This document shows, piece after piece, positions 43,342 through 59,713 of a stretch of DNA of 64,000 bases. The DNA lies in NCBI RefSeq assembly GCF_033063295.1, contig NZ_JAWJZH010000001.1, positions 2,046,001 to 2,110,000 on the forward strand, in the 5' to 3' direction. The stretch comes from Nitrosomonas sp. Is35. Lineage in GTDB: Bacteria > Pseudomonadota > Gammaproteobacteria > Burkholderiales > Nitrosomonadaceae. Below the pieces are notes generated by a model that had not been told where the DNA came from, searched no databases, and saw only the letters and a list, made by a program, of their open reading frames with translations. The position numbers were made by a program, and so were the translations under genes. Every line of letters begins with the position of its first letter. Within the stretch, counting starts at the first letter, position 1.

Positions 43342-45123
43342 TCACTGTACCGGTCTGCGCGTTTCCCGGAACCAAGCCCGGTACTGTTCCATTTTCACGC
43401 GTTGTTCCGCCGGAGCGCGGCGGCGGCAGGTGGTGAATTCTTCCGTATCCGCTTTGGCACCCCAACGGATTTCGGCGCAGTCGTTGGGGTTGTAGGCCAT
43501 TTCAAAAGCCGGTTTGCGCGCCAACACATCGGCCACCGACAACTCCCACGGGCTGCCGTCGCTGCGCGTGTAGCGGATACTGCTTTCCAGGACGCGTTGC
43601 GCGTGATGCTGTTCGATCTGGGCTTTGGCTTGCGCGGGACTTTGGTTGCCGAGAACAAATAATTCCGGATGGCGCAGAATTTTTTCCGGCAAGCCGGTGA
43701 GCACATTGATCGCGATGATCAAACGCATATCGCGCGACGGCGTGGAATAATCTTCCCAAGGTCCGAGAGTCTGAAAAATCGCCGCGCCGCTGGGCATCGG
43801 GATAACGCTGCGCGGATTTTTGCGTAAATACGCTTCGCCGTTGTTCACCGACGTGACGCGCGTCTCGATTTGTTCCACCAGCGCAGCCAGTGTGGCTTCG
43901 TACGCTTGCACCGGATCAAAACCCTCGGGATTGATCAGTTTGGCTAATTTGGCGTAGAAATCGTCGGGCGTGAGCTGATCCTGCTCCAAGGAATAAGCGG
44001 TAAATTCAGGGTGACCGCTCAGTTCATTATTGCTGAGAACACGCCATTGGCCGGGAGCAGTTTGAGTCAATGGACGGAACGCCTTGAAACCCGGCCCTGC
44101 ATTCGCGGTGTTGGCAAACAACAGGGTGCCTTCCCACACGCGCTTGCGCGTCACCGAGTTGTCCGGTTGCGCATCGACGGCCAGCAGCACGCCGGGATTA
44201 TCTGCCGTCTGCGGCACCCATTCGGCCACGACCAGAATATGACCATAGGGATCGGCGTAGACCGTTCCCGGCCACAGCGTTTCCCGGCTCATCGGAACCG
44301 GATACAGATCGGTTGATTCGTCCGCCAGCCCGGTGCGTGCCGAACCCGAGTGAACGGTATCCACCAGCCGACGGCTGAATTTCGTGAAATTGCTCTGCGA
44401 AGTAACACCACGGGTAAATTCAGACACGATGGTCGGCGCGTTGCAACGTGGCGGCGTCTTGGCCGAGCCGCGTCCGCACGCGCGGAAAGCGACCGGCAAA
44501 CCGGTCTTCCAGGCGAAATACGCCCTCAATGTATACGGCAAATCGGCGCAGTCGGGCGTCAGCGGCAATTTATTGTCTTCGCCCAGACCAAGATAATTGT
44601 GCAAGAAGTTGCGCTCGGCGTTGCGCAATACCGGCTCCAGCGATGTAAAGCTGAGATTTTCTTCGGGCGGCGCGCCAAACAAGGTTTCGATCCAGGCGGA
44701 ATAAAACGCTTCGGCGGCAAGATTCCATTCTTTGAGTCTTTCCTGCGGATTGGGTCCACCCACGGTAAATTGATGGCAGGCAACTGGCTTGACACCCCGG
44801 CTCGCTTCGACGCGATAGTGCCCTGCGCCGGGTTCTTCCCATCTGGCAGCCAGACTCCAGGGCGGGCCGCCGCGGTGGCGCGGCTGCAGCGCTATCCGCT
44901 GGCCTTGATCGCCGGTCAGCGTCAATTCCGCCAGCGGGCCATCGGTCGAAACAGCCATGATCTTGACCGGTTCGCCGTTTCTGGGATTTAACGGCGAAAT
45001 CCAAATGTGCGCCGCGCCGGTCTGCTCACACGCGATGTCCTCGGCGAGCGCTTGCGGAATGCCCACCCCTGCCAGAAAGCACGCAAGAAAACAATTCATG
45101 AAATAGACCCGCAAGCTTTTCAT
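43342..45123 (-). CDS. Large exported protein of unknown function
   Basis: A 593-aa protein starting at ATG 45123, seven bases after AGGAG. The signal peptide is at ~1-28 (CFLACFLAGVGIPQALAE). A beta-sandwich-like segment follows (about 35-115: HIWISPLNPRNGEPVKIMAVSTD...GHYRVEA). The central part has LTPDCADLPYTLRAYFAWK, a Cys-containing helix like the nucleophile helix of papain-fold (NlpC/transglutaminase-like) enzymes, and later YGHILVVAEW, which could supply the His. No family is recognised with certainty. The lipoprotein gene at 45182 lies just upstream on the same strand. Confidence 0.6.
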   Translation of the reverse strand: MKSLRVYFMNCFLACFLAGVGIPQALAEDIACEQTGAAHIWISPLNPRNGEPVKIMAVSTDGPLAELTLTGDQGQRIALQPRHRGGPPWSLAARWEEPGAGHYRVEASRGVKPVACHQFTVGGPNPQERLKEWNLAAEAFYSAWIETLFGAPPEENLSFTSLEPVLRNAERNFLHNYLGLGEDNKLPLTPDCADLPYTLRAYFAWKTGLPVAFRACGRGSAKTPPRCNAPTIVSEFTRGVTSQSNFTKFSRRLVDTVHSGSARTGLADESTDLYPVPMSRETLWPGTVYADPYGHILVVAEWVPQTADNPGVLLAVDAQPDNSVTRKRVWEGTLLFANTANAGPGFKAFRPLTQTAPGQWRVLSNNELSGHPEFTAYSLEQDQLTPDDFYAKLAKLINPEGFDPVQAYEATLAALVEQIETRVTSVNNGEAYLRKNPRSVIPMPSGAAIFQTLGPWEDYSTPSRDMRLIIAINVLTGLPEKILRHPELFVLGNQSPAQAKAQIEQHHAQRVLESSIRYTRSDGSPWELSVADVLARKPAFEMAYNPNDCAEIRWGAKADTEEFTTCRRRAPAEQRVKMEQYRAWFRETRRPVQ

Positions 45124-45181
45124 CCGCATTCTCCTGTGATACGCACACGCCTTCAAAACCAATTGTTCGCTTCGCGACCAG

Positions 45182-45592
45182 CTATTCCTTTTTAATCAGC
45201 GCGATTTCATCCACGATGTCATTTTCGTCATAACGCACTTGAAATGCCATGTCATCGCCACTGAAGGTGATTTCCGTGGGCGTGCCGACCAGCTCCCATA
45301 AACCCAGCGTCACGACATTCGCCGCGCCATGCAGAAAGGCCCTGCTCGCTTTCGCGCCTGTGCTATACCCTTGAACAAACTTAAAGATTTCATAGCGCTT
45401 ACCGTCGCGGAATTCGCTGATAACCGGCGCACCAAACTCGGAAATCAGCATGGCTCGGGACGTGCCTTCCTTTAATAAATCGACATCCTTCTTTTCAGGC
45501 TGTTTGGCCGCCATAAAAACAGAGCAGCCGGAAACTGACAATAGCAATATCAACAGCACCGTAAAAAACATAAACCTTCTTAAATTATTCAT
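45182..45592 (-). CDS. Hypothetical lipoprotein
   Basis: A 136-aa lipoprotein (MNNLRRFMFFTVLLILLLSVSGCS, lipobox SVSGC). The mature part has LLKEGTSRAMLISEFGAPVISEFRDGKRYEIFKFVQGY, an SmpA/BamE-like pattern, and a later ITFSGDDMAFQVRYDEND. It lies 58 bases upstream of the large exported protein on the same strand and is likely in one operon with it. Start 45592 is chosen because the signal peptide begins there. Confidence 0.6.
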   Translation of the reverse strand: MNNLRRFMFFTVLLILLLSVSGCSVFMAAKQPEKKDVDLLKEGTSRAMLISEFGAPVISEFRDGKRYEIFKFVQGYSTGAKASRAFLHGAANVVTLGLWELVGTPTEITFSGDDMAFQVRYDENDIVDEIALIKKE

Positions 45593-45637
45593 ATCTCGCC
45601 AGTTTAATTCACGATAATCCAATTACTTCGGACACAA

Positions 45638-45874
45638 ATGAGGAAAAAATACCGGCCATTGCTGATCCGGATTTTCCTCTTTTTAGTGCTGCATTTTACT
45701 GGAATCGCTTCGCCGGTGTGTCGCTACAGCGATGATTTACTCACTTGTCATTCAATTAATCCGATACTTCAAAAATTACTTTTTATCATAATTATATTGA
45801 TTATCATCTGGTTAGCAATGAAATATCATGTTACCACAGTACAGCATAATGATTTTTACTTATATAGAAATTAG
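45638..45874 (+). CDS. Hypothetical small membrane protein
   Basis: A 78-aa frame with two predicted membrane segments (about 8-25 and 44-62) and two cysteines between them. No ribosome site of note and no recognised family. It may be genuine but this is not certain. Confidence 0.35.
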   Translation: MRKKYRPLLIRIFLFLVLHFTGIASPVCRYSDDLLTCHSINPILQKLLFIIIILIIIWLAMKYHVTTVQHNDFYLYRN

Positions 45875-45953
45875 AAAATATTATTTCTATTTATATAAAA
45901 AAATTGCTATCGTTCGCTTCCATCAATTTTTACTACTGTGTTGAACACTATAA

Positions 45954-46175
45954 ATGACTACCGATTCCGGTTTGGAACACAAAATTGTTGCAAACAATGA
46001 TCCAATCAACAAGGTTCCCGTGGAGGTCGCGCAGGAAATTTTGCGCGCGGTTGCAAGCATCGAATACGGTTCGATTGAAATCATCATCCACGGCAGCAGA
46101 GTAGTTCAAATTGAGTGCCGGGAAAAAATTCGCGTCAACCAAGGCGGACCAAACCGGAAAACGCTAAAACCGTAA
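45954..46175 (+). CDS. YezD family protein (DUF2292)
   Basis: A 73-aa protein with the YezD signature EILRAVASIEYGSIEIIIHGSRVVQIECREKIR. YezD proteins are small, of unknown function, and are often found with sulfate and cysteine genes. Here it lies directly upstream of the porin and sulfate uptake genes, the same setting. It is probably the first gene of the sulfur operon, though a gap of 144 bases could hold a separate promoter. Confidence 0.8.
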   Translation: MTTDSGLEHKIVANNDPINKVPVEVAQEILRAVASIEYGSIEIIIHGSRVVQIECREKIRVNQGGPNRKTLKP

Positions 46176-46319
46176 CTACTTAAATGGGTTAAGTTTTAAG
46201 TTCCACCAATGCAGCAAAGCCAACCTACCCCTTAACAATACCAGCCAAAAAAACTGGCCGGCATAAAACTAAATGAGCAGATCGACGGAATTTCCGGTGA
46301 ACTTACTCAGGAGAATATA

Positions 46320-47999
46320 GTGAAATTTCTTTGGTACATATCGAGAATTATGACATTGAGCGCACTGACTATCAGCGCTACTCAAGCATCTTCCGATCAA
46401 AAAACAACGCTTGATTTTCAAGCAACGCAACAAACAATCCTGCAAGTTGTGCAACAAATGCCGGAAACGGCTAAGCCATCAGCCGTCAAGGCATCGGAAC
46501 AGGGTAAACCATCTGAAGCGGGAAAAGGATTGCCCGCCATCGTGCCGGAGACAAAAACCGCCGAGGCAAAAAAGCCAACCAGCTACCATCAGCGTTCCAA
46601 CAGCTACGCCACCAACCCGGATTCCGATCCGCCGCGCTATGTGCGCCGCTTGAGCGATATCGGTGTTGAGGCATTTAAAGATGTCACCTGGCTGGAAATC
46701 GGTCTGGAATCCCGCATGCGTTACGAGCATCGCCACAACGATATCCGCCGTATTGAAGGTGGAAACGACGATCCTTTTTTCTTGCGCCAACGCGCATGGA
46801 TAGGGATCAAAGAGATTCTGGATCCATTCCGCTTCGCGGTCGAATTTCAAGATTCCCGGGTTTATAACAACCGGTTTGTACGGACCGATCAGGAAAGAAA
46901 CGAGTACGACCTGCTCAACGCATACGGCGAACTGTATTTCAAAAAAGCGCTTGGCGCCGATGACCGGGGTAATGATCGACCGATTCGATTCCGCGTAGGC
47001 CGGATGGCTTATGAAACAACCGACCGGCGTTTTATCGCGCGTAATGAGTGGCGCAATACCACCAATACATTTGAAGGTTTCCGCTTGAATCTGGGTCGTG
47101 AAGCCAATGATTGGGAGCTTGATCTGTTCGGCATGCAGCCGGTGCGGCGTTTGCAAACCAAGTTTGATGAAGCAAATGATAATCTCTGGTTCTTTGGCGG
47201 GATCGGCACTTTACGCAAATGGTCTGACATCGCTACTCTCCAGACTTACTACATGGGGCAGAAGCAAACGGGTGATCCGAATGGTTTCACAGCAACCAAC
47301 CGGCTGGACCGGGAAATTCATATGCCTGGGTTTCGTGTATATGGCAAGGCGAGCGATATTCTCGATTTCGATGTCAGCTATAACCATCAGCTAGGATTCA
47401 GCGGCCCCAATCGCGTGGACGCGCATGGATACACCATCGAAGTAGGAAAAACATTTGACCATGCCTGGAAACCACGGATTGGCCTGTTTTACGGTTATGC
47501 CAGCGGCGACAAGAATCCCAATGACAATGTCGACAACCGCTTTGACCGCTTCTTTGGATTTGCGCGGCCTTGGTCGGCGGATCACTATGTGATTTATGAG
47601 AACTTGAAAGCACCGAAAATTCGCTTTGAATTCAGCCCAACGCAGAAACTAGGATTTGAAGTTGGTTATGGCGCCTATTGGCTGGCCAGCAGCAAGGACC
47701 GCATGTTCGATATTCTCGATGGCAACATCAGTAATACCATCAAGGACCCTGGATTCAATCGCGACCGCACCGGGCAGAGCGGCGATTTCGGTGGCCATGC
47801 CTTCGAAGGACGCATACGCTACCAAGCCACATCGAGAATCAGCACCATATTGGGTTACACCCATTTTACCGCCGGAGAGTTCGTTAAAAACCGTATCGCA
47901 GCGACTTCTTGCGCAACCTTGCACAAGCACCCTTGCACCGATCAACGCTCAGGCAACACGGATTTCTTATATTTTGAAGTGCTTATCAGCCTTTTATAA
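46320..47999 (+). CDS. Alginate_exp-family outer-membrane porin of the sulfur operon
   Basis: A 559-aa protein, GTG start after AGGAG, signal peptide ending TQAS, and a long Ala/Lys/Pro-rich periplasmic linker (about 25-100). The barrel begins [21 protein letters not shown] and shows [41 protein letters not shown] and the end [11 protein letters not shown]. It belongs to the same family as the porin at 20333 but is only distantly similar. Being 32 bases before the sulfate-binding protein gene, it is probably the outer-membrane entry for sulfate or an organosulfur compound; this is inferred from position. Confidence 0.8.
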
Positions 48000-48031
48000 A
48001 CCCTTTTAAATCATTAGTGGAGAAAATTCTC

Positions 48032-49033
48032 ATGAACATCAGAACATGCCTCGCAGTAAGCTTCTTGACAGCCGGTTTGATTGCCGGCGGTAACGCATTG
48101 GCGGACAAAACCTTGCTCAATGTATCCTACGATCCAACCCGCGAGCTCTATCAAGAATTCAATGCGGCCTTCGCCAAATACTGGCAAGCGAAAAACAACG
48201 AAAAAGTCACGGTCCGGCAATCGCATGGCGGCTCTGGCAAGCAAGCGCGTTCCGTCATTGACGGCCTTGAAGCCGATGTAGTGACACTGGCGTTGGCCAA
48301 CGATATCAACGCTATCTCCGAGAAAGCCAAATTGCTGCCGGAAAATTGGCAATCAAGGCTGGCACTCAACAGCACACCGTACACTTCGACCATCATCTTT
48401 CTGGTGCGCAAGGGAAATCCCAAAGGCATCAAGGATTGGGATGATTTGGCCCGCCCTGGCGTGGCGGTGATTACACCGAACCCGAAAACATCCGGTGGCG
48501 CGCAGTGGAATTATCTGGCGGCATGGCAATACGGCAAGCGCAAGTTCGACGACGAAGGCAAAGTGAAGGAATTCGTCAGCAACATTTATAAAAATGTACC
48601 GGTACTGGATTCCGGCGCGCGTGGATCAACCACCACATTCGTCGAACGCGGTGTCGGCGATGTGTTCATTTCCTGGGAAAACGAAGCCTTTTTGGCGCTG
48701 AAGGAATATGGCGCGGAAAAATTCGAAATTGTCATTCCATCGCTCAGCATTCTAGCCGAACCACCCGTCGCGATCGTCGATAAAGTGGTCGACAAACGCG
48801 GCACGCGCCAAGTCGCGGAAGCTTATCTGGAGTACCTCTATTCCGAAGCAGGCCAGGAAATTGCCGCCAAGCATTTTTACCGCCCTACGCATCCTGGCGT
48901 GGCTGAAAAGTATGCCGCCAAATTCCCCAAAATCGAATTATTCAAAATCGATGAGGCGTTCGGCGGGTGGAAAAATGCACACAAAGCCCACTTCGCCGAT
49001 GGCGGCACATTCGATCAGATTTATCTGAAGTAA
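48032..49033 (+). CDS. sbp: Periplasmic sulfate-binding protein
   Basis: A 333-aa protein with a signal peptide (cleavage after NALA). It matches Sbp/Cys[80 protein letters not shown] and [13 protein letters not shown]. These loops bind the sulfate ion. ATG 48032 is chosen by the GGAG site and signal peptide. Its membrane partners CysTWA are encoded 4.5 kb downstream in the same direction. Confidence 0.93.
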
Positions 49034-49081
49034 TGACAACATAGCGCGCTGCGGCGCGCTAACAAACAAAGAGGATTCAAC

Positions 49082-49426
49082 ATGACCGTTCTTATCGTGG
49101 GTGGAGATTACGTGGCATCGTTCAAGCAGCTGATTGCCACGCAACACAATGCACGCATCGAGCATTGGAGCGGCCGCGCAAAAGGCTTTAATAAGCGGCA
49201 GCTTCCACATGAAACACAATTGATCATCGTTATTTGCGACTTCATTAATCATAACTTTGCCAATTCGATCAAAGAGCAAGCGAATCGCAATGGTATTCCG
49301 CTTGTTTATTGCCATCGTTCTGTTAATGAATTGAAACGCAAATTAAAGGATATCTACCCAACCGATAAGGACAGTTGTTGTAACAGTTTTGGTGAAAAAA
49401 GAAATCCAACACACAGATATCACTAA
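49082..49426 (+). CDS. DUF2325 domain protein
   Basis: A 114-aa protein that begins MTVLIVGGDYVASFKQLI and has RIEHWSGRAKGFNKRQLPHETQLIIVICDFINHNFANSIKEQANRNGIPLVYCHRSVNEL, the DUF2325 fold (Rossmann-like, unknown function, often in sulfur or redox operons). It has a CC pair near its end (DSCCNSF). It lies between the sulfate-binding protein and the EAL gene; AGAGGA precedes the start. Confidence 0.75.
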   Translation: MTVLIVGGDYVASFKQLIATQHNARIEHWSGRAKGFNKRQLPHETQLIIVICDFINHNFANSIKEQANRNGIPLVYCHRSVNELKRKLKDIYPTDKDSCCNSFGEKRNPTHRYH

Positions 49427-49526
49427 CCAGTTCAATTGCAGCCTATAGAAACATCTCAAGTCTGTAACAGAACCATTGTTTTCTCTGTCTATGCTTAGCA
49501 GCATTCATTTCCATGAAGATAATTCC

Positions 49527-49787
49527 ATGAATACAGCAGCACAAAAAACTTTTACAGCCTTCGAGGAATTTGAGCTTATCCATTCCGCCACCGGCTCTGC
49601 ATTAAAACGCCCTGACAACGGCTGGATCAGCGGATATTTTCATCAATACGCGGTGCGAATTAAGCTACTCTCCACGATCGAAACAACCGCGTTGCCGCTC
49701 GTTTCAGAATTACTATATACTCATCTTGCTGATAAAGATGGTTGTTGTAACAGCCTGCTTGAAAAAAGAAATATCTTAAGCACGTAA
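49527..49787 (+). pseudogene. Chimeric ORF: start of the EAL gene joined to the end of the DUF2325 gene
   Basis: An 86-codon frame. Its first ~45 residues (AAQKTFTAFEEFELIHSATGSALKR...GWISGYFHQY) match the start of the EAL-like protein at 49846, and its last ~25 (HLADKDGCCNSLLEKRN) match the end of the DUF2325 protein (PTDKDSCCNSFGEKRN). The upstream sequences also match. It is what remains of a tandem duplication with an internal deletion. It could still be translated, but a function is doubtful. Confidence 0.75.
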
Positions 49788-49845
49788 TAAAACAACCGGC
49801 TTTCTCTGTCTGCGCATTGCAGTTCATTTCTATGGAGATAATTCC

Positions 49846-50676
49846 ATGAATTCATCAGCACAAAAAACATTTACCGCTCTCGAAGAATTTGAGCTCATCA
49901 ATTCCGCCACCGACTACGCTTTAAAACGCGCCGACAACGGCTGGATCAGCGGATATTTTTATCAATGCGAATTAACCAGCGTTTTTCAACCCATTTTTAG
50001 CATCGATTTGGGCAAAACCATCGCACATGCCGCGTATGTGCGCTCCAAGTCCAACGAAGAAATTGCACTCTGGCCATGGCAAGTGTTCGCTATGGCGTCA
50101 AAAGACGATCAATTGATCGAATTGGATCGCTTATGCCGGGCGATTCATGCACTGAATTATTATTTCAATCATATATCCCGGTCGGACAATTTGTTTGTCG
50201 AAGTTCACCCGCGTCTGCTGGAGAGCGTCAAGGACGATCACGGCCGCGCATTTGAGAATTTTCTCGATCTGATCGGCGTGAAAACCTCGCGCGTCGTCAT
50301 CGAAATTCCGGCTATCGTCAACCGCAACTGGAAATTGCTGCAGCATGTCATCGGTAATTACCGCTCGCGCGGTTACCGGATTGCCGCCAACTATTCCGGC
50401 AGCAGCAGCGATTGGATGGCGGAACTGGGCAGTTTGTATCCGGATGTGGTGCGAATCGCGGCCAGCGATCTGATGCGCCATGAAACCATTTCCGGACTGG
50501 CGGATACCGTCCATAGCTTCGGCGCAAGTTTGCTGGTACGGGACATCGAAACAGTGGAACAGTTAACGGCCGCTAAACGCACCGAAGCCGATTATCTGCA
50601 AGGCAATCTGCTCGGCAAACCGGCATCCGTGATCAAAACATCCGAGCTGACGGCTGCTTCAAGACCGGATAATTAA
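49846..50676 (+). CDS. Degenerate EAL-domain protein
   Basis: A 276-aa cytosolic protein, start after GGAG. Residues ~45-270 have the EAL fold: VFQPIFSIDLGKTIAHAAYVRSK takes the place of the usual QPIxxL...GxEALxR, and LFVEVHPRLLE, VVIEIPAIVNRN and GYRIAANYSG replace the NxS, ExTE and DDFG motifs. The EAL triplet and the metal-binding residues are missing, so it should not hydrolyse cyclic di-GMP and is more likely a binding or scaffold protein. It lies just before the encapsulin gene, and the pair may be functionally linked. Confidence 0.75.
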   Translation: MNSSAQKTFTALEEFELINSATDYALKRADNGWISGYFYQCELTSVFQPIFSIDLGKTIAHAAYVRSKSNEEIALWPWQVFAMASKDDQLIELDRLCRAIHALNYYFNHISRSDNLFVEVHPRLLESVKDDHGRAFENFLDLIGVKTSRVVIEIPAIVNRNWKLLQHVIGNYRSRGYRIAANYSGSSSDWMAELGSLYPDVVRIAASDLMRHETISGLADTVHSFGASLLVRDIETVEQLTAAKRTEADYLQGNLLGKPASVIKTSELTAASRPDN

Positions 50677-50776
50677 AACAAAAGGAGAACATCCATACGT
50701 CATCTTTTCAACTCGTTTCACAAGCCTGAAGCAGTACACGTTGCAACATTATTGACTTAATCCAAGGAGAATCACA

Positions 50777-51694
50777 ATGACCGATATTCATCAAGGAAAC
50801 ACCGCATTAGGTGACGTAGCCGCCCGCACGCTTGCCAATGCCACAAAAACTGTCCCGATGATGGGAACCATCACGCCGCGCTGGCTAACCCACTTATTGC
50901 ATTGGGTGCCGGTCGAGGCGGGTATTTATCGCGTGAACAAAGTGAAAGACCCCGATCAGGTGGAAGTCGATTGCTCTGCCAAGGATGAACGCGAATTACC
51001 CGCGACATTCGTGGATTATGAAGAATGGGGACGGGAATATGTGTTGAGTGCGGTCAATACCGTGCTGGACGTACATACCCGCGTTTCCGATCTGTACAGC
51101 AGCCCGCACAATCAAATCCGCGAACAGTTACGTTTAACCATTGAAACAGCCAAAGAACGCCAGGAAAGCGAGCTGATCAATAACAAAGAATATGGGTTGC
51201 TCAATAATGCGGCCAAATCGATGCGGGTGAAAACACGCACAGGCGCACCCACACCGGATGATTTGGATGAACTGATTGCGCGCGTGTGGAAAGAACCTGC
51301 TTTCTTTTTAGCGCACCCGCAAGCGATCGCCGCGTTTGGCCGTGAATGTACCCGCCGCGGCGTCCCGCCTCCAACCGTAACGCTGTTTGGTTCACAATTC
51401 CTGACTTGGCGCGGCATTCCATTGATTCCGAGCAACAAGTTCAATATCACCGGTGGTAAAACCAGTATCATCCTGCTGCGCACGGGTGAAAGCCGCCAAG
51501 GCGTGGTTGGACTCTATCAACCGGATTTACCGGGCCAGCAAGGCATGGGATTGTCGGTGCGCTTCATGGGCATCAATCACAAGGCGATCGCTTCTTATCT
51601 GGTTTCTCTCTATTGCTCGCTGGCAGTATTGACCGAGGATGCGCTCGGCGTACTCGAAAATGTCGAAGTGGGTAAATATCATGAGTACAAGTAA
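50777..51694 (+). CDS. Family 2A encapsulin shell protein (SrpI-like)
   Basis: A 305-aa protein, start after AAGGAG. I recognise it as a family 2A (SrpI-type) encapsulin, an HK97-fold capsid-like protein that forms 24-nm T=1 cages: AARTLANATKTVPMMGTITPRWLTHLL, RELPATFVDYEEWGREYVL (E-loop region), FGRECTRRGVPPPTVTLFGSQFLTWRG, and GMGLSVRFMGINHKAIASYLVSLYCSLAV. It lacks the cNMP-binding insert of family 2B. The next gene, which overlaps it by 14 bases, is a cysteine desulfurase with a long N-terminal extension: the known cargo of this family. Known homologs act in sulfur starvation or sulfur storage. Confidence 0.88.
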   Translation: MTDIHQGNTALGDVAARTLANATKTVPMMGTITPRWLTHLLHWVPVEAGIYRVNKVKDPDQVEVDCSAKDERELPATFVDYEEWGREYVLSAVNTVLDVHTRVSDLYSSPHNQIREQLRLTIETAKERQESELINNKEYGLLNNAAKSMRVKTRTGAPTPDDLDELIARVWKEPAFFLAHPQAIAAFGRECTRRGVPPPTVTLFGSQFLTWRGIPLIPSNKFNITGGKTSIILLRTGESRQGVVGLYQPDLPGQQGMGLSVRFMGINHKAIASYLVSLYCSLAVLTEDALGVLENVEVGKYHEYK

Positions 51695-53528
51695 TCTCGA
51701 TCATCCCACAGGCGAAAGCTTGGATGCGGCATCCAGCTATCTGCCGGATGTCGAGTTACTGACCCGCATGGCCAACGAAATGTTTTCCGCTTTGCCCAAT
51801 GCAACGCCTGCCGCAGGCGTACCGTCCTCTGCGGCAGGCACATCCGCGGCCGCATCACCGTCTGCGCTGGAAATTCCCGCATTCCCCGCGGATCATCCGC
51901 GTGCGGGGAGTTCTGTGTACGCTTCAGCCATTCCATTACCATTCGAGGATGAACTCAACACTTTGCTTTCATCGGCAAAAGAGAGTTATTCCGCTGTGCC
52001 CGGCCTAACGCAAACGGCTGGCGCTCCCTCTGCGGAAGCGCTCACGGCTGCACCGCTGCCAGCGCCGGAAATTTCCGCAGTGAGCGTGGATCATTTCAAT
52101 CTGGCCACTTCCCCTATTCCATCGGTCATCCCGCTACCGTTTGAAGAAGAATTACGCACGCTCTTCACACCAGCGCAGAAAGCTACGCTTGCACATACCA
52201 CCATCCCGGCCAATCCAAGCCAGGCATCGTCATTCTATTTTCTCGACAGCATCGCATCACCAGCGACGGGCACGCCGCTACCGTCCTATGCGGCCGCGCA
52301 TCCGCCGTTCGATGTGAATGCCATCCGCCGCGATTTTCCGATACTGAAAGAACTAGTGCATGGCCGTCCGCTGGTTTGGCTGGACAATGCCGCGACGACA
52401 CAGAAACCGCAATCAGTCATCGACCGCCTCAGCTACTTTTATCAACACGAAAACTCCAACATCCATCGCGCCGCGCATGAATTGGCGGCACGCGCGACCG
52501 ATGCCTACGAAGATGCGCGCAAGAAAGTCCGTCATTTCCTGAATGCGTCATCCGTCGATGAGATTGTCTTTGTCCGCGGCACCACCGAAGGTATCAATCT
52601 CGTCGCACAAAGCTGGGGGCGACAACATATCAATGAAGGCGACGAAATCGTCATCTCCTGGCTGGAGCATCACGCCAATATCGTGCCGTGGCAGCAGCTG
52701 TGTACCGAGAAAGGCGCCAAATTGCGCGTTGCGCCCGTGGATGATCACGGCCAGATATTGCTGGATGAGTATCAAAAACTGCTGAACTCACGCACCAAGC
52801 TGGTGGCATTCTCGCAAGTCTCGAATGCGCTGGGTACGATCACACCGGCGCAGCAAATGATCGCGATGGCACACCGCGTTGGCGCGCGCGTGCTGTTGGA
52901 CGGCGCGCAATCGGTTTCACACATGCGCGTCGATGTGCAGCAGCTCGATTGCGACTGGTTCGTTTTTTCCGGTCATAAGGTATTCGCTCCAACCGGGATC
53001 GGCGCACTGTTCGGCAAATTAGAATTGCTCAATTCCATGCCGCCTTGGCAGGGTGGGGGCAATATGATTCAGGATGTCACCTTTGAAAAAACCATTTATC
53101 ATGCGGCACCCGCCCGTTTTGAAGCCGGTACCGGCAATATCGCCGATGCCGTCGGATTGGGCGCAGCGATCGATTACGTTCAGCGCATCGGTCTTGAAAA
53201 CATCAGCCGCTATGAACATCAGCTGCTGGTTTATGCGACACGCGGCCTCAGTACGATTCCGGGTTTGCGCCTGATCGGCACTGCCGCGGAAAAAGCGGGC
53301 GTGCTATCTTTTGTGCTGAAGGGATTCAGTTCCGAAGAAGTCGGCGCAGCGTTAAACCGCGAAGGTATCGCCGTGCGTTCCGGCCATCACTGCGCACAGC
53401 CGATTTTGCGCCGCTTTGGCCTGGAAACCACGGTTCGTCCGTCATTGGCGCTGTACAATACCTGTGCGGATATCGATTTTCTGGTCGCCGCACTGCGCCG
53501 TATCCAAAGCGGACGCACGAGCTTTTGA
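51681..53528 (+). CDS. Encapsulin cargo cysteine desulfurase (SufS-like) with disordered N-terminal domain
   Basis: A 615-aa PLP enzyme that takes sulfur from cysteine, making alanine and a persulfide. The first ~209 residues are Ala/Pro/Ser-rich with three related blocks: LPDVELLTRMANEMFSALP (21-39), LPFEDELNTLLSSA (86-99) and LPFEEELRTLFTPA (152-165), spaced 65-66 residues apart, followed by FYFLDSI (185-191). The SufS-like enzyme starts near 210 (FDVNAIRRDFPIL), with PLP Lys433 in SGHKVFAP and catalytic Cys571 in VRSGHHCAQP. In family 2A encapsulins this N-terminal domain directs loading into the shell. ATG 51681 overlaps the shell gene end, which would fix the ratio of the two. Confidence 0.9.
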   Translation: MSTSNLDHPTGESLDAASSYLPDVELLTRMANEMFSALPNATPAAGVPSSAAGTSAAASPSALEIPAFPADHPRAGSSVYASAIPLPFEDELNTLLSSAKESYSAVPGLTQTAGAPSAEALTAAPLPAPEISAVSVDHFNLATSPIPSVIPLPFEEELRTLFTPAQKATLAHTTIPANPSQASSFYFLDSIASPATGTPLPSYAAAHPPFDVNAIRRDFPILKELVHGRPLVWLDNAATTQKPQSVIDRLSYFYQHENSNIHRAAHELAARATDAYEDARKKVRHFLNASSVDEIVFVRGTTEGINLVAQSWGRQHINEGDEIVISWLEHHANIVPWQQLCTEKGAKLRVAPVDDHGQILLDEYQKLLNSRTKLVAFSQVSNALGTITPAQQMIAMAHRVGARVLLDGAQSVSHMRVDVQQLDCDWFVFSGHKVFAPTGIGALFGKLELLNSMPPWQGGGNMIQDVTFEKTIYHAAPARFEAGTGNIADAVGLGAAIDYVQRIGLENISRYEHQLLVYATRGLSTIPGLRLIGTAAEKAGVLSFVLKGFSSEEVGAALNREGIAVRSGHHCAQPILRRFGLETTVRPSLALYNTCADIDFLVAALRRIQSGRTSF

Positions 53529-53565
53529 TGATGGATTAATCTAAATCAACACAAGGAATTCTTAA

Positions 53566-54399
53566 TTGAGCAGTTTCAAGCAATACAGTATTTTGCCAGG
53601 TTTCAATCTGGCATTGGGATTCACACTGTTGTATCTCAGTCTGATCGTTTTGATTCCGTTGTCGGCCGCGTTCATTCGTACCGCCGAATTGACGTGGCCG
53701 GAATTCTGGTCGATTGTTACCACCCCGCGCGTGCTGGCTTCTTACCGGTTGACATTCGGCGCATCGTTCGCGGCCGCCACTGTCAATGCCTTTTTCGGTT
53801 TGTTGGTCGCGTGGGTGCTGGTGCGTTATCATTTTCCCGGCAAGAAAATAGTTGATGCCTTGGTGGATCTCCCCTTCGCCCTGCCGACTGCGGTAGCGGG
53901 TATCGCACTGACAGCGCTGTATGCCGGCAATGGTTGGATCGGACAGTTTCTTGAGCCGCTCGGCATCAAAGTGGCTTTCACGCCACTGGGGATTTTCGTA
54001 GCGTTGACTTTTATCGGTCTGCCGTTTGTAGTACGCACCGTGCAGCCGGTGCTCGAAGATATCGAAACCGAGCTGGAGGAAGCGGCTGCAACGCTCGGCG
54101 CCAACCGCTGGCAAACCTTTACGCGGGTGATTTTCCCGGCACTCTATCCCGCCTTAATGACCGGTTTTGCGCTGGCTTTTGCACGCGCAATCGGCGAGTA
54201 CGGCTCGGTGATTTTTATCGCCGGGAATATGCCAATGATTTCCGAAATCACACCGCTGCTGATTATCACCAAATTGGAACAGTATGACTATGCCGGGGCC
54301 ACGGCCTTGTCGGTCGTGATGCTGGTGATTTCTTTCACGCTGTTATTGATTATTAACTTATTGCAATGGTGGAGCCGACGCCGCAGCATGCAAGCTTGA
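53566..54399 (+). CDS. cysT: Sulfate ABC transporter permease CysT
   Basis: A 277-aa inner-membrane permease with six helices. The family motif [51 protein letters not shown], the EAA loop that contacts CysA, is near residues 170-220. It starts with TTG after AAGGA; no ATG or GTG near it fits better. With CysW it forms the membrane channel for sulfate or thiosulfate. Confidence 0.92.
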
Positions 54400-54407
54400 G
54401 AACCATA

Positions 54408-55289
54408 ATGACTACAACGATTACATTCCCCTTAACTGGTAAAACCTTCCGGCAGCGCGCCACACAGGAGCCTGCTTGGGTGCGCCGCTCCTTGATCGGC
54501 TTGGCGCTGGTATTTCTAACCCTCTTTTTGTTTGTGCCGCTGATTTCGGTCTTCTACGAAGCTTTGAAAAAGGGCGTGGAAGTTTACGTCGCGGCGATCA
54601 CCGATCCCGATGCGGTTTCCGCCATCAAACTGACGCTGCTGGTAGCAGCCATTGCAGTGCCTTTGAATCTGATATTCGGTATCGCGGCGGCCTGGTCCAT
54701 CGCCAAGTTTGAATTTCGCGGCAAGAATCTGCTGATCACGTTGATCGATCTGCCTTTCTCAGTCTCGCCGGTGGTTTCCGGGTTGATTTACGTGCTCGTG
54801 TTTGGCTTGCAGGGATGGCTGGGGCCGTGGCTGGCGGAGCACGATCTGAAAATTATCTTTGCCGTTCCCGGTATCGTGTTAGCCACCGTGTTTGTAACGG
54901 TACCGTTCATCGCACGCGAATTGATTCCACTGATGCAAGCACAGGGCACCGAGGAAGAGGAAGCGGCCGTTGTGCTGGGCGCCAGCGGCTGGCAGACTTT
55001 CTATCATGTGACGCTGCCGAATATCAAATGGGGTTTGCTGTACGGCGCTATTCTGTGTAACGCCCGGGCGATGGGTGAATTTGGCGCGGTATCGGTGGTA
55101 TCCGGCCATATTCGCGGCAGCACCAATACCATGCCGCTGCACGTCGAAATTCTCTATAACGAATATAACTTCGCCGCTGCGTTCGCGGTCGCTTCGCTGC
55201 TCGCCTTGCTGGCGCTGGTAACGCTGGTGCTAAAAACACTGGTTGAATTTCGTAATAAACAACACCAAAAACAACGAGGTCTCGAATGA
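54408..55289 (+). CDS. cysW: Sulfate ABC transporter permease CysW
   Basis: A 293-aa six-helix permease. The EAA loop reads [55 protein letters not shown] 54408, nine bases after the cysT stop, is chosen over the ORF start at 54366 that overlaps cysT. It overlaps cysA by ATGA. It pairs with CysT. Confidence 0.92.
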
Positions 55290-56374
55290 GCATTGAAGTG
55301 ATTAGTCTCTCCAAACAATTCGGCACGTTTACCGCACTGCATGATGTCAGTTTACAAGTGCAATCCGGTGAATTGCTGGCGTTACTGGGGCCTTCGGGTT
55401 CCGGCAAAACCACGCTGCTGCGTGTGATCGCCGGACTGGAAACCGCCGATAGCGGCCAGGTATTATTTCATGGCGAAGACGCAACCGATCAGCATGTGCG
55501 TGACCGCCAAGTCGGATTCGTCTTCCAGCATTATGCCTTGTTCCGCAACATGACAATTTTCGAGAATGTCGCCTTCGGTTTAAATGTGCGTCCGAAGAAA
55601 TTCCGCCCTTCCAAAGAGGAAATCCATGACCGCGTGATGAAATTATTGCATTTGGTGCAGCTGGATTGGCTGGCGGACCGCTATCCGCACCAGCTTTCCG
55701 GCGGCCAGCGCCAGCGTATTGCTTTGGCGCGGGCACTGGCAGTGGAACCGAAAGTGTTATTGCTTGATGAGCCTTTCGGCGCATTGGATGCCAAGGTGCG
55801 CAAGGAACTGCGCTCCTGGCTCCGCAGATTGCACGATGACATGCACATTACCAGTGTATTTGTCACACACGATCAGGAAGAAGCACTGGAAGTCGCTGAC
55901 CGGGTTGTCGTCATGAACGAAGGCCGGATTGAGCAAATCGGCACACCGGATGAAGTGTACGAGCAGCCTGCCAGTCCGTTCGTGTACGAGTTCCTTGGCA
56001 ACGTTAATTTATTCCATAGCCGCTTGCATCGCGGCCGTGCCTGGATCGGCGATCTGGAAGTCGATGCACCGGAGCACGCGGAAGCGGAAGAACTGGCCGC
56101 CATTGCTTATGTCCGTCCGCATGAAATCGAAGTCGAGCGCACCCAAAATGGTGAAGCGGCGCTGGCGGCGCAGATTGTTCATATTCTATCGGTAGGTCCG
56201 ATTGTCAGGCTGGAGCTGGTACGCGAGAACGACAAAGATAGGCACCCGGTGCACGCTGAAATCAGCAAGGAGCGCTTTCGCGAATTGCAGCTCACCAAGG
56301 GAGAGAAAGTCTTTATCAAACCCAAACGGCTTGATTTGTTCCCCAGCTATCCGCAAAGCCAATTGAAACATTAA
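55286..56374 (+). CDS. cysA: Sulfate ABC transporter ATP-binding protein CysA
   Basis: A 362-aa ATPase: Walker [10 protein letters not shown] (about 36-44), signature [16 protein letters not shown], Walker [13 protein letters not shown], and the H-loop [11 protein letters not shown], then a C-terminal TOBE-like regulatory domain from about 240. It drives sulfate uptake with CysT and CysW and the binding protein at 48032. The ATGA overlap with cysW supports translational coupling. Confidence 0.94.
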
Positions 56375-56417
56375 TGCATGACATTAAAAAACAGATTGAA
56401 CAAAATGGATTGAAGTC

Positions 56418-57371
56418 ATGACAACCGAACTCAAAACACAGGACACAACTGAACCGGAAATCAATCGTATGGAAATCGATCATATTGTTTCCCAATTACG
56501 TGCGTTACGTGTGGCCTCCCTGGAGCACCGTCAGCGGCTTAACAAGCCTCCCAAACTGCCTTCACGAAAAGTCCTGGCATCGATCATTGAACGGTTAAGT
56601 GCGGCGTTGTTTCCGAATCGTTTGGGCACACCCAGCATTTCCGATGAAGGAATCGATTACTACGTAGGACATACCCTGGATGTTACATTACGCGACCTGA
56701 TCGATCAGATTCACCACGAATTGTTTTTTGTCTCGGGGCAGGAAATTGCCGGTCCGTCGATTCGTGAACATGCTGCGAGCATTGCCAATACATTTGCCCA
56801 GCAATTACCCAAAATCCGCAGTCTGCTGGAAAATGACATCCGCGCAGCTTATGAAGGCGATCCGGCAGCACGTAGCATTGACGATGTATTAGTGTGCTAC
56901 CCGGGGATTACTGCGATTATTCACCACCGCATCGCGCATGAGTTGAACCAGCTGGGCGTGCCGCTGATCGCACGCATGATGTCGGAAATCGCTCACTCAC
57001 TCACCGGCATAGAAATCCATCCGGGCGCACAGATAGGCGATAGTTTCTTTATTGATCATGGAACCGGCGTAGTGATCGGCGAGACTACGGTCATTGGCCG
57101 CAATGTGCGGTTGTATCAGGCTGTCACCCTCGGTGCCAAGCGCTTCCCCGTCGATGAACACGGCATTCTGGTGAAAGGCAATCTGCGTCATCCCATCGTT
57201 GAAGACGATGTGGTGATCTATGCCGGCGCTACGATTCTCGGTCGTATCACCATCGGCCGCGGCTCAACGATCGGAGGCAATGTCTGGCTGACACACAGCA
57301 TCCCGCCGGAAAGTCACGTCACGCAAGCGCAAATTCGTACGGATGTAATCGCAGCCGGTACCGGAACTTAG
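56418..57371 (+). CDS. Serine O-acetyltransferase (EpsC-type)
   Basis: A 317-aa enzyme that makes O-acetylserine, the carbon skeleton for cysteine. An N-terminal helical domain (about 1-185, RQRLNKPPKLPSRK...ISDEGIDYYVGH) is followed by the left-handed beta-helix (GIEIHPGAQIGDSFFIDHGTGVVIGETTVIGRNVRLYQAVTLGAKRF), with the catalytic His in DHGTG. The longer N-terminus is that of the EpsC-type serine acetyltransferases that are often next to sulfur genes and encapsulins. It is the last gene of the operon and links sulfate import with cysteine supply for the desulfurase. Confidence 0.9.
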   Translation: MTTELKTQDTTEPEINRMEIDHIVSQLRALRVASLEHRQRLNKPPKLPSRKVLASIIERLSAALFPNRLGTPSISDEGIDYYVGHTLDVTLRDLIDQIHHELFFVSGQEIAGPSIREHAASIANTFAQQLPKIRSLLENDIRAAYEGDPAARSIDDVLVCYPGITAIIHHRIAHELNQLGVPLIARMMSEIAHSLTGIEIHPGAQIGDSFFIDHGTGVVIGETTVIGRNVRLYQAVTLGAKRFPVDEHGILVKGNLRHPIVEDDVVIYAGATILGRITIGRGSTIGGNVWLTHSIPPESHVTQAQIRTDVIAAGTGT

Positions 57372-57425
57372 AATTCTTTGTATTTGAATCCCGTCACAGG
57401 TAAGGCGAATATTTCCTCAATGCGC

Positions 57426-57713
57426 TCAATGAGATGCAAATATTAATTGATCTGAGAATTCACCTGCGGCTATTTTTTCCAGCAATTTTTTCGCTTTCTC
57501 ACTGACCCCCGCCCCATGTTGCAGATAAGATTGCGCCGCCAGCGCGGGTGAATAATCACTGACCGTATATCCCTGCGTATTGATTTCTTGCTGCGATATC
57601 GTTGTCACTGTCAGTTTTCCTTTTCCTAGCTTGATCACAAGCAGCTTCTTTCCACTCGCCCCCGCAATGATTGCAGTATGTCGATGTCGATTGATAATCA
57701 CAGTTGGTTGCAT
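57426..57713 (-). CDS. Hypothetical protein
   Basis: A 95-aa product from ATG 57713: MQPTVIINRHRHTAIIAGASGKKLLVIKLGKGKLTVTTISQQEI, then a helical C-terminal half. No signal peptide. No family recognised. It is convergent with the sulfur operon. Confidence 0.5.
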   Translation of the reverse strand: MQPTVIINRHRHTAIIAGASGKKLLVIKLGKGKLTVTTISQQEINTQGYTVSDYSPALAAQSYLQHGAGVSEKAKKLLEKIAAGEFSDQLIFASH

Positions 57714-57905
57714 TTTTGTCGGTCTCAAACAGTCAATAGCGTATACGCATACGATACCACTGTTCATCGCCCGGAATCTTCATTCACACCTAAGTAAAAA
57801 TGTTTATTCATTCTTGGCCTGCATTTTCTTGACCAAAACGTACAGCATCTCTATAATCCACCCTTCGTTTCTGAAGTGATTCCAGTCACACAGCAACTTC
57901 TTATT

Positions 57906-57980
57906 GCGGGAATAGCTCAGTGGTAGAGCACAACCTTGCCAAGGTTGGGGTCGCGAGTTCGAGCCTCGTTTCCCGCTCCA
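57906..57980 (+). tRNA. tRNA-Gly (GCC)
   Basis: 75 bases including CCA; acceptor stem GCGGGAA / TTCCCGC, D-arm GCTC-AGTGGTA-GAGC, anticodon loop TTGCCAA (GCC), T-arm with GAGTTCGAGCCTC. First of a Gly-Cys-Leu tRNA group. Confidence 0.95.
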
Positions 57981-58090
57981 TTCTTTCTGTGGAATGGCTC
58001 TTTGAAATTTTACTTGCTGGGAATCGAATAATTACTCCTGACCGGCTTTTTTCCGTAGGATTAAAAGACATTTAGAAGTTATGCAATAAT

Positions 58091-58164
58091 GGCGGGGTGG
58101 CAGAGTGGTCATGCAGCGGCCTGCAAAGCCGTCTACGCCGGTTCGATTCCGACCCCCGCCTCCA
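58091..58164 (+). tRNA. tRNA-Cys (GCA)
   Basis: 74 bases including CCA; acceptor GGCGGGG / CCCCGCC, anticodon loop CTGCAAA (GCA), T-arm CCGGTTCGATTCCGA region. Confidence 0.94.
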
Positions 58165-58183
58165 CCGATCTGATATTTCCATA

Positions 58184-58273
58184 GCCCGGGTGGTGAAATT
58201 GGTAGACACAAGGGACTTAAAATCCCTCGGGCCTAAAACGCCCGTGCCGGTTCGATTCCGGCTCCGGGCACCA
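58184..58273 (+). tRNA. tRNA-Leu (TAA)
   Basis: 90 bases including CCA, with a long variable arm typical of Leu tRNAs; acceptor GCCCGGG / CCGGGCA region, anticodon loop CTTAAAA (TAA). Its 3' part is copied at 61427-61482, so it served as the attachment site of an integrated element. Confidence 0.94.
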
Positions 58274-58862
58274 ATAATCAATAAACTAGACTTATTTCAT
58301 CTATCAAAAAATCTCCCTTTCTGTTCCGCAATTCTGAAAAATACAGATCAATTTGACCAACAAAACCATCTGAACGCAGAATTCGTGCAAATGCTCAAAG
58401 CACCTCTCAAAGCAGATAGCCACGCGCCCGATAGTCGTGTTTTTTTACGCCCGTAGTTTGCCTATGGCTGGGTATGAGCACGCTTTATCGATGTTTAAAA
58501 ACGCGGTTGCAAATGATGAATGCGGTTTAGCAGCCGCATAGTGGCGTGCAAACGTGATGATTGCTGAAGCGATCAGCCATGTGGACGACATCAAGTTTAT
58601 GATGGCAGATGTGAATTTGATTTGCTCGATCTATCAAGCCGCAGCGCTTGTCTGAAGTGGCTCATCGGATTGTTTCGCAACCATGAAATTGACTCGGTTC
58701 CGCTATTCGGTACTTTAAAAGAAAAACCGGCAAAACTATCCGCAGAAGTAACTCCACATTGGATTCAGGATGGCATAATTGTTGATAAAGCTATGGAGGC
58801 TGCGGCGTAGTCGGTGAAGCAGGCAGGATTATTGAGATTAGATCGTATAAGGATAGGATGAA
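58274..58862 (+). other. Decayed start of the tRNA-Leu island
   Basis: No intact gene. Short broken frames are present, for example a 62-codon piece at 58622-58810 with GTLKEKPAKLSAEVTPHW that has no recognised family. The stretch looks like former prophage or island genes. Confidence 0.35.
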
Positions 58863-59015
58863 ATGAGTTTTTTCGAATGGCCGTGTGAACTGGTTTTCAG
58901 TGCTTGCACCTTTTTTGTAATGACAAAGGCTTTATTGGCATTAATTCTCTGCGTTATCTCGGCCGGGATGATTTTCATCGTAATAAAAGAAATAATCAAA
59001 GATTTCAGGAAATAA
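58863..59015 (+). CDS. Hypothetical 50-aa membrane protein
   Basis: ATG follows AGGATGA. The product is MSFFEWPCELVFSACTFFVM... with one or two hydrophobic segments and a basic tail (IKEIIKDFRK). No family recognised; resembles small phage-type membrane proteins. Confidence 0.4.
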   Translation: MSFFEWPCELVFSACTFFVMTKALLALILCVISAGMIFIVIKEIIKDFRK

Positions 59016-59051
59016 TAGAAGCTCTTACTCATATCGGAATATCAATAGAAA

Positions 59052-59085
59052 CGCCCGGTGAGGGACTTTGAATCTCAGCCGGGCG
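59052..59085. terminator. Hairpin terminator
   Basis: Stem CGCCCGG / CCGGGCG around a 20-base loop, between the 58863 and 59140 genes, which converge on it. Confidence 0.5.
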
Positions 59086-59139
59086 TGGAGATCATATGTG
59101 GATACGCCAATTTAGTATTGGACGGACATTAAAGAAACT

Positions 59140-59325
59140 TTAGGGATTATTAATCAAATTATTAATCCAGTCCGGGTTGGTATACCAATAATATCCACCC
59201 GCAATAAGCAGGAAAACCACAATTAAAGCGACAACTACGCACATCAGAATATCGCTATTACTAAGTCGCGGACCGTCTGAATTGACAGTTTTGCTCTCGA
59301 ATTCGTTGGGATTATTGGTGCTCAT
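59140..59325 (-). CDS. Hypothetical small single-pass membrane protein
   Basis: A 61-aa protein from ATG 59325 (GAGG seven bases upstream): polar N-terminus MSTNNPNEFESKTVNSDGPRL, one membrane helix (MCVVVALIVVFLLIAGGYYW) and a short Asn/Pro-rich tail. No family recognised. Confidence 0.55.
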   Translation of the reverse strand: MSTNNPNEFESKTVNSDGPRLSNSDILMCVVVALIVVFLLIAGGYYWYTNPDWINNLINNP

Positions 59326-59536
59326 GGTTAACCTCGTTTTTAATAAAATGCAATGTAGCTGCAAAAAAATTATTGATCTGTTCGGTTGTTAACATAGGGT
59401 CAGAAAATTTTGTGCATGATCTTAGAACTGTAATAGCGAAATTTACCGGAAGATTTTGGCGCGTTACTACTGAGCAACTGATTCAGATTTAAACAATTCA
59501 ATAATTGATATCATCTTTAAATGGGGTTATGACCAA

Positions 59537-59713
59537 ATGAGCAAAACTCAATGGATAAAATGCAGCGAACAGATGCCCCCAGAGGACTATACTTTGATAG
59601 TAATAAAGGTCAAAGGAAAAGTGCTCGGAAAAATAGTCAGCCTGGATTTTCATCGGTGCAACTATTACGCAGCAGAGGATACTGAATGGTCTCTGACTCC
59701 AGCAGATAAATGA
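59537..59713 (+). CDS. DUF551-like small phage-type protein
   Basis: A 58-aa product that begins MSKTQWIKCSEQMPPEDYTL, the WIxxSExxPxE opening of DUF551, a domain common in prophages and phage islands. Function unknown. It supports a phage-like origin of the tRNA-Leu island. Confidence 0.6.
   Translation: MSKTQWIKCSEQMPPEDYTLIVIKVKGKVLGKIVSLDFHRCNYYAAEDTEWSLTPADK

Follow-up and report, generated by a model that had tools for sequence, protein, structure and literature searches.

The window analysed here is a 64,000-nucleotide stretch of the Nitrosomonas sp. Is35 genome. Between positions 45954 and 57371 it carries, on one strand (+, as are all features given below), genes for an OscA/YezD-type protein, an outer-membrane porin, the sulfate-binding protein Sbp, a DUF2325 protein, an EAL-domain protein, an encapsulin shell, a cysteine desulfurase (CD), the transporter components CysT, CysW and CysA, and a serine O-acetyltransferase (SAT). 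Profile searches with curated cut-offs found every gene named in a preliminary description of this DNA to be present, intact and on the + strand. The short gaps or overlaps reported there hold for some neighbours, for example the overlapping shell and CD genes, but not for OscA and porin (144 bases apart) or DUF2325 and EAL (419 bases). Mis-assembly is ruled out by the recurrence of the same gene order in independent named assemblies.

The shell gene (50777..51694) encodes a protein of 305 amino acids. It had been called a Family 2A encapsulin, and the profile search bears this out: the curated 2A model NF041162 is passed at 534 bits (cut-off 380), and PF19307 (357 bits) is the sole domain matched, with no trace of the cyclic-nucleotide-binding domain that distinguishes 2B from 2A. 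The protein also scores over the Family 2B model (431 bits, cut-off 400). Lack of the extra domain, together with the curated 2A match, rules out both a Family 2B shell and a phage capsid. What settles the family is identity to a solved shell, SrpI (6x8m), with which 230 of 298 residues are shared (77%) in a gap-free alignment. On the strength of that identity the window's shell would be expected to assemble icosahedrally with an HK97 fold and to package cargo.

The candidate cargo lies immediately downstream. CD (51681..53528) passes NF041166 at 916 bits (cut-off 800) and has an N-terminal extension of ∼200 residues; its start is most likely 51681, which gives a 14-base overlap with the shell gene, rather than 51639. 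Both loading motifs are recognisable (LTRMANEMF and FYFLD; reference motifs LARLANEFFS and AASPYYFLDG) and the catalytic Cys, Lys and His-His are all present in the sequence, so that a desulfurase with a long N-terminal extension beside the shell, as first described, is confirmed. Among relatives, 79 CD rows were compared and 31 omitted (domain start unrecognised or gene cut); of the 48 usable rows, 23 match motif 1 under a strict pattern, 39 have motif 2 and 47 the catalytic Cys.

Genes for sulfate entry stand on either side of this pair. Upstream are the porin (46320..47999; Alginate_exp family, PF13372, 329 bits) and periplasmic Sbp (48032..49033; NF008022, 513 bits, and TIGR00971, 484 bits, both above cut-off); downstream are the permeases CysT (53566..54399; TIGR02139, 440 bits, cut-off 246) and CysW (54366..55289; TIGR02140, 430 bits, cut-off 329) and the ATPase CysA (55286..56374; TIGR00968, 400 bits, cut-off 343; NF008105, 437 bits, below its cut-off of 502). 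The sulfate ABC importer (Sbp-CysTWA) is thus complete: binding protein, two permeases and ATPase, all of sulfate type. Three SulP-like proteins (78–90 bits) occur in the genome and may or may not carry sulfate, so CysTWA cannot be called its sole sulfate importer. SAT (56418..57371) matches the EpsC-type model NF041874 at 166 bits (cut-off 150) and the cysE model TIGR01172 at 167 bits, below 210.65; it is the genome's second copy, a paralogue (70%) being found at C1:135288. The claim of a complete sulfate import and cysteine-making operon stands as regards import but not cysteine-making: PAPS-reductase-family genes (C1:1721940 and C1:145030) and the cysteine synthase gene cysK (C1:134293) lie elsewhere.

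Between Sbp and the shell are a DUF2325 gene (49082..49426; PF10087, 53 bits) and the EAL gene (49846..50676; PF00563, 92 bits). The 419-base gap separating them holds a relic (49527..49787): a duplicated and now decayed 5′-end of the EAL gene followed by a copy of the 3′-part of DUF2325, detected as direct repeats of 147 nt (87%) and 42 nt (81%). In L144, a close relative, the EAL gene occurs as a tandem pair. The EAL protein is degenerate, as first proposed: most active-site residues are replaced, and the full catalytic set (EAL-motif Glu, Asn, two paired Asp, Lys and a later Glu) is not present. Ala occupies the place of the EAL-motif Glu (A62/A63, in either alignment); at the other places, which we take to be the canonical sites, are E119, N182, Y183, R203, A205 and R232, with E153, E235 and Q252 kept. 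These replacements rule out an active c-di-GMP phosphodiesterase in the case of the window's protein, not of its Methylophilaceae relatives: the EAL-motif Glu column of 60 aligned rows contains Glu in 15 (Methylophilaceae and Gallionellaceae among them) and Ala in 38.

The operon opens with an OscA-like small protein (45954..46175; DUF2292/YezD family, PF10055, 51.7 bits); since its score against the OscA model NF033785 (37.4 bits) is under the curated cut-off of 85, "OscA-like" is as far as the naming goes. Ahead of it, the leader (45830..45953) includes a 20-base block (about 45905–45924) that recurs in relatives and is a putative promoter or regulator site. Counted raw over loci having OscA, and allowing at most five edits, the block precedes OscA at 11/16 cage-bearing and 11/17 cage-free loci; it is absent from the other five of the 16. 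A stem-loop just 3′ of the Sbp stop (49042..49061) recurs in relatives with paired changes and may be an mRNA-stability element, although the 12 sequences compared were chosen from 34 for clear hairpins and so lean towards structure. The EAL–shell gap has little in common among relatives except a ribosome-binding site. Promoter-like matches (18, against 14.0±3.6 in shuffles) and terminator-like matches (17, against 15.3±3.3) are at chance level, so that internal promoters are neither supported nor excluded. An Rfam scan of 44000–60000 returned three tRNAs only.

Association of the shell with particular genes extends well beyond this genome and is above chance. Eighty named loci were fetched as nearest relatives, and 36 extend 9.5 kb or more to each side of the shell: within ∼10 kb, CD is found at 36/36, SAT at 33/36, full CysTWA at 23/36 and Sbp at 22/36, counts that are biased upward by the choice of nearest relatives. 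By plain arithmetic (20 kb in ∼4 Mb) a single-copy gene would lie that near about once in 200. A class/phylum draw is fairer, and here CysTWA lies within the fetched stretch at 5/18 shell loci; the 18 represent 14 of 16 other shell-positive genomes plus four more, include two (L190, L191) resembling Family 2B and comprise several short contigs. Named loci L002, L003 and L005–L009 are apparently genomes also in the second locus set, and the two sets were never summed. In the sister genus g273, CysTWA is beside the shell at none of the eight loci fetched (L216 spans just 3.5 kb and L163 <3 kb on one side); the link between cage and importer is therefore not obligatory. In some loci of Nitrosomonas, Methylophilaceae, Gallionellaceae and Methylococcales the shell lies near sulfate-import genes, the gene order differing from one to another; other loci of those groups (e.g., L034, L036, L060) are without sulfate-import genes inside the stretch.

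Within the family the shell is patchy (29/120 genomes over cut-off). Every one of the 18 shell-positive genomes in the draw from the genus was read, and the cassette takes two positions: Shell-CD between EAL and CysT (15/18) or SAT-Shell-CD after CysA (3/18). Shell-negative genomes with an Sbp match number 63; the 20 that were read, mostly those of highest Sbp similarity and not a random sample, include two of a sister genus (L137, L143). Sixteen of the 20 (L124–L136, L138, L140, L142) keep the operon with EAL adjoining CysT. EAL counts in general take in any match of at least 24% identity, so some of those in Methylococcales may be unrelated EAL proteins. The porin-Sbp-CysTWA run without a cage is accordingly found at 16/20 loci, or 18/20 counting two without EAL. 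Shell, CD and SAT were matched in none of the 20 stretches, of which L128, L141 and L142 are too short to judge SAT.

One cage-free locus, L126, retains a deletion scar: the first shell codons are fused to the CD-CysT spacer, and the importer is intact. The scar aligns with the sister locus L149 at 84.7% over 170 nt and 85.4% over 41 nt. In a CysTWA tree, presence and absence of the cassette is repeated, with L149/L126 and L212/L134 as sister pairs; since the tree alone cannot separate gain from loss, direction is read from L126 only. That porin and importer are kept without the cage implies that they serve sulfate uptake in general. Part of the original interpretation survives, namely a Family 2A shell and packaged-type CD inside a sulfate-import run; the dedicated porin and the lineage's own uptake system do not, both being retained in the same order by 16/20 cage-free relatives, and neither does the complete cysteine-making operon.

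We think it rather probable that shell and CD form a removable two-gene sulfur-buffer cassette, built into a sulfate-uptake operon and using its control. The proposal draws on gene identity and intactness, recurring order, cassette presence and absence, the two positions and the one scar. The cage enzyme does not use sulfate, which must first be converted to cysteine. Scarce sulfate would switch on the operon leader, and porin, Sbp and CysTWA would import sulfate, from which the reductase and cysteine synthase genes elsewhere would make cysteine with the help of the operon's extra SAT. A single transcript would also yield shell and CD, the latter being packed inside through its N-terminal extension; CD would take sulfur off cysteine and the cage would keep it as persulfide or elemental sulfur. 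Strongly induced uptake might thus be kept from raising free cysteine or sulfide to toxic levels, and sulfur would be set aside for the next shortage. Against the buffer reading, it is not obvious how an enzyme that uses up cysteine would help a cell short of sulfate.

A less likely, though credible, alternative is that CD mobilises sulfur during starvation, recycling it from cysteine as persulfide to Fe-S and thio-cofactor acceptors, with the shell gating access and not storing. The intact catalytic residues of the window CD suit such a role, and PMC8049743 both reports that the Synechococcus elongatus system is induced by sulfate starvation and offers this model alongside storage. The genome encodes another desulfurase, however, next to a SufB/D gene, so the caged CD is probably unneeded for basic Fe-S assembly; profile searches matched no SufE or rhodanese family among the operon's proteins; and a later paper, to judge by its title, shows storage of elemental sulfur.

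More doubtful is a broader proposal, that ammonia oxidisers add the sulfur-buffering cage to their sulfate-uptake operon, or drop it, as a unit, so that close strains make up natural plus/minus pairs, and that the dead EAL protein adjoining it, retained in this genus to bind a protein rather than to break down c-di-GMP, governs uptake or cage loading. It is improbable that a dedicated line runs from the outer membrane to the cage, with porin and importer there to supply it: Shell-CD does sit inside the importer run in 15/18 shell-positive genomes of the genus, and a one-strand run in Methylomonas koyamae is even longer, but the cage-free runs, the intact importer beside the L126 deletion and the reductase-family and cysteine synthase genes outside the operon all argue otherwise, and the cage-free strains suggest that sulfate uptake and growth are normal without Shell-CD. 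Least of all do we expect the cassette to be a hitch-hiker that landed in a well-expressed operon at a position without functional meaning, for although its patchy, repeated presence and absence and the deletion scar would fit, the shell lies near sulfate-import genes in differing arrangements in the four groups named above, though not at other loci of those groups such as L034, L036 and L060.

The cage-plus/cage-minus pairs of close Nitrosomonas (L149/L126 and L212/L134) are natural comparisons for the favoured sulfur-buffer cassette. The kind of cage is known already; naturally cage-free strains as a handle on its function are new. Family 2A physiology has so far been thinly tested, and PMC8049743 describes S. 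elongatus knock-outs without a growth phenotype, growing normally with or without sulfate, which counts against the buffer reading. In several lineages the cage genes lie within or next to those for sulfate uptake, and this is genome evidence tying the cage to sulfate supply.

The nearest characterised system is SrpI and CyD of S. elongatus PCC 7942 (PMC8049743; PDB 6x8m, 6x8t). The shell family is the same (77% over 298 residues), the SufS-type cargo has the long N-terminal extension with both conserved motifs, and the genes are adjacent; the S. elongatus desulfurase is loaded via its N-terminal domain. The window pair differs in its surroundings: it lies between EAL and CysT, in an operon for sulfate ABC import that also has OscA-like, porin and DUF2325 genes. 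A census of Family 2A CD operons (PMC8346489) likewise pairs shell with CD; in the text available, the accessory genes with the strongest enrichment are SAT and rhodanese, and a sulfate importer or a lost or moved cassette is not described in that text. Literature on OscA with sulfur starvation and on EAL with sulfate ABC operons, judged from listings, yielded nothing on the window's arrangement. The cage-free Nitrosomonas operon (OscA-porin-Sbp-(DUF2325)-EAL-CysTWA) is alike in its other genes, order and strand, DUF2325 being missing in some, and differs in that the stretches read gave no shell, CD or SAT match. A further locus, L053 of Methylomonas koyamae SM2, shares with the window a single-strand run that joins Shell-CD to genes for an OscA-like protein, porin, Sbp, CysTWA and SAT; EAL and DUF2325 were unmatched inside this run, which reads OscA-porin-Sbp-CysTWA-LysR-CysK-SAT-shell-CD, with the cage pair last. 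The window's gene set is therefore not the fullest.

The operon at window 45954-57371 consists of 11 genes, all intact and all on the + strand, and the one-strand gene set claimed in the preliminary description is borne out by Pfam and NCBIfam assignments: a DUF2292 protein (OscA/YezD type), an Alginate_exp porin, a sulfate-binding protein (Sbp), a DUF2325 protein, an EAL protein, a Family 2A shell, a Family 2A cargo cysteine desulfurase (CD), CysT, CysW, the sulfate ATPase (CysA) and a serine acetyltransferase (SAT). The shell, proposed to be a family 2A encapsulin, reaches 534 bits with the curated Family 2A model, above its cut-off of 380, and shares 230 of 298 residues with the solved shell of SrpI; the nearest named shells, from Nitrosomonas sp. 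MAG_20 and N. oligotropha Nm75, are both 98% identical, which makes a Nitrosomonas origin of the window very probable. The cargo desulfurase (916 bits, cut-off 800) retains its catalytic residues (Cys, Lys and a pair of His) and both N-terminal motifs reported by Nichols et al. (PMC8049743), and its start overlaps the shell stop by 14 bases. Three clustered tRNA genes (57906-58270) are located downstream of the operon.

A complete cysteine-making operon, as had been claimed, is not what the genome contains. On contig C1 of the same genome cysK, with a second SAT (70%) immediately downstream, is found at 134-136 kb, and PAPS-reductase-family genes are found at 145 kb and 1722 kb. Since all of these lie outside the operon, it is an uptake operon plus an extra SAT, not the whole cysteine pathway. 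A second desulfurase (52%) is encoded immediately downstream of a SufB/D gene and a third match reaches 26%. The operon holds one CysT and one CysW; the other matches to CysT are 25–41% identical. The genome also encodes three weak SulP-like proteins: these short members of the SulP family (L206, L207 and L208), one of them encoded a short distance behind a CsoSCA-like protein (25.5 bits), perhaps have bicarbonate as substrate.

Among 120 genomes drawn from the family, 29 carry a shell over the cut-off and 92 match Sbp with an E-value of 1e-40 or lower. Additional to the 29 is another decaying copy, a fragment of the shell gene that contains a stop codon, in a genome of the sister genus (G397:C17:74481-74693). 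Gene order in nitrosomonads supports the proposed placement of the cage inside the sulfate operon, and also shows the operon without it: Shell-CD separates EAL from CysT in 15 of the 18 shell-positive genomes that this draw holds for the genus (window included, all covered), and EAL is followed by CysT with no cage in 16 of the 20 loci covered out of the 63 shell-negative genomes in which Sbp is matched. The three other shell-positive loci (L209–L211) define a second Nitrosomonas arrangement, EAL-CysT-CysW-CysA-SAT-Shell-CD-LysR. Gene sets vary among shell-positive loci (L148 is without a porin match, L156 without a DUF2325 match). SAT follows CysA in 10 of the 15 loci with the cage between EAL and CysT; it was not found in four (L149, L152, L156, L212), and the contig of L155 ends too early. 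The four remaining shell-negative loci comprise two with porin-Sbp-CysTWA and no EAL (L137, L143), one with porin-Sbp only (L139) and one that ends 2.2 kb past Sbp (L141). Shell, CD and SAT were found in none of the 20 shell-negative maps, although the stretches from L128, L141 and L142 do not extend far enough for a verdict on SAT. An additional OscA-like and porin pair stands downstream of two sulfate operons (L131:12083-14015 and L135:12255-14178, oriented coordinates).

One cage-free locus, L126, carries a deletion scar. Its EAL-CysT gap measures 203 nt, as against at most 69 nt in the other 15 cage-free loci where CysT follows EAL. The first part matches the cage-bearing L149 from the EAL-shell gap into the opening codons of the shell (84.7% over 170 nt), and the next part matches the CD-CysT spacer of L149 (85.4% over 41 nt); CysTWA trees place the two as sisters with 100/99 support. 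The L126 lineage lost its cage through a deletion, and its importer genes stayed intact. Explaining the cage label on the tree takes five changes, at least three on well-supported branches; with the second arrangement added, the cage-free rows need seven changes, at least six of them on such branches. Most of these changes were probably losses, because repeated return to exactly the same junction is unlikely.

The EAL gene accompanies the sulfate operon with or without a cage. In the window protein, which bears a weak likeness to Bacillus YkuI (34 bits), substitutions have removed the EAL-motif Glu, the Asn, the two Asp, the Lys, the following Asp and the late Glu; a single middle Glu and two residues further on are retained. 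The EAL-motif Glu is kept in 15 of 60 aligned rows and is Ala in 38 (some genomes are represented twice); rows that keep it include Methylophilaceae and L073, the latter with an EALLR-type motif, so active-site loss is a trait of Nitrosomonas-type EAL proteins and not of the whole family. In Methylophilaceae and a Ferriphaselus, too, EAL proteins are encoded next to CysT or Sbp (L010–L024, L045, L046, L073). These look nearer to active phosphodiesterases than do the Nitrosomonas proteins, and the EAL motif is retained in those examined. Sulfate uptake may ancestrally have been linked to c-di-GMP. A second, distant EAL gene (26–31% identity) directly follows CysA in the Nitrosomonas operons L124, L125, L127, L129, L131–L133, L135, L136 and L152; the close relative L144 has two tandem EAL genes, and window 49527-49787 holds the start of the EAL gene a second time, as a decayed tandem duplicate fused to a DUF2325-like tail.

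Upstream of OscA, a 20-base block is shared, allowing five edits, by 11 of 16 loci with the cage and 11 of 17 without it; these are raw counts, uncorrected for chance. The EAL-shell gaps have little common sequence apart from the ribosome-binding site. Leader block, gap and 14-base overlap fit a putative transcription from the operon leader; a pattern scan for promoters and terminators stayed at chance level. Directly past the Sbp stop, a stem-loop (49042-49061) recurs within the genus and shows paired base changes. Across 12 hand-picked sequences 95.8% of cells are paired and two pairs have changed on both sides, compared with none when the alignment is slid by one column. The stem-loop may keep Sbp mRNA above the level of later genes.

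In a wider set, 36 of the 80 named shell loci fetched have long flanks. CD is present in 36/36, SAT in 33, CysTWA in 23, Sbp in 22, an OscA-like gene and an EAL match in 18 each, a porin in 15, DUF2325 in 14, CysK in 11 and a LysR gene (≥35%) in 10. At many Methylophilaceae loci these genes form two blocks that flank SAT-Shell-CD and lie on the strand opposite to it. In a class and phylum draw CysTWA occurs at 5 of 18 shell loci. In the sister genus g273 (nine loci over the cut-off, eight of them fetched) CysTWA was found beside the shell at 0/8 loci, two of which have insufficient flank on one side or on both; a LysR gene follows CD or SAT at 8/8, with L216 showing only the LysR start before its contig ends.

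The operon with its cage is real and well identified, and its kind is already known. Methylomonas koyamae (L053:632-12560) has a fuller set than the window on one strand, OscA-porin-Sbp-CysTWA-LysR-CysK-SAT-Shell-CD. Sulfur storage is reportedly the subject of work by Benisch et al. in 2024. Nichols et al. 2021 (PMC8049743) place Family 2a next to sulfur genes, report cargo loading and induction by sulfate starvation, and offer storage as one of two models; Andreas and Giessen 2021 (PMC8346489) count 1281 Family 2A CD operons, in which SAT and rhodanese show the strongest enrichment. Among the matches listed for encapsulin with sulfate transport, sulfate permease, CysB or uptake, this operon form was not described; bare co-occurrence may already be tabulated in the neighbour tables of the PMC8049743 supplements. 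The novelty lies in its evolution: as a cassette, the cage occupies two positions in a standing sulfate-uptake operon and also drops out of it.
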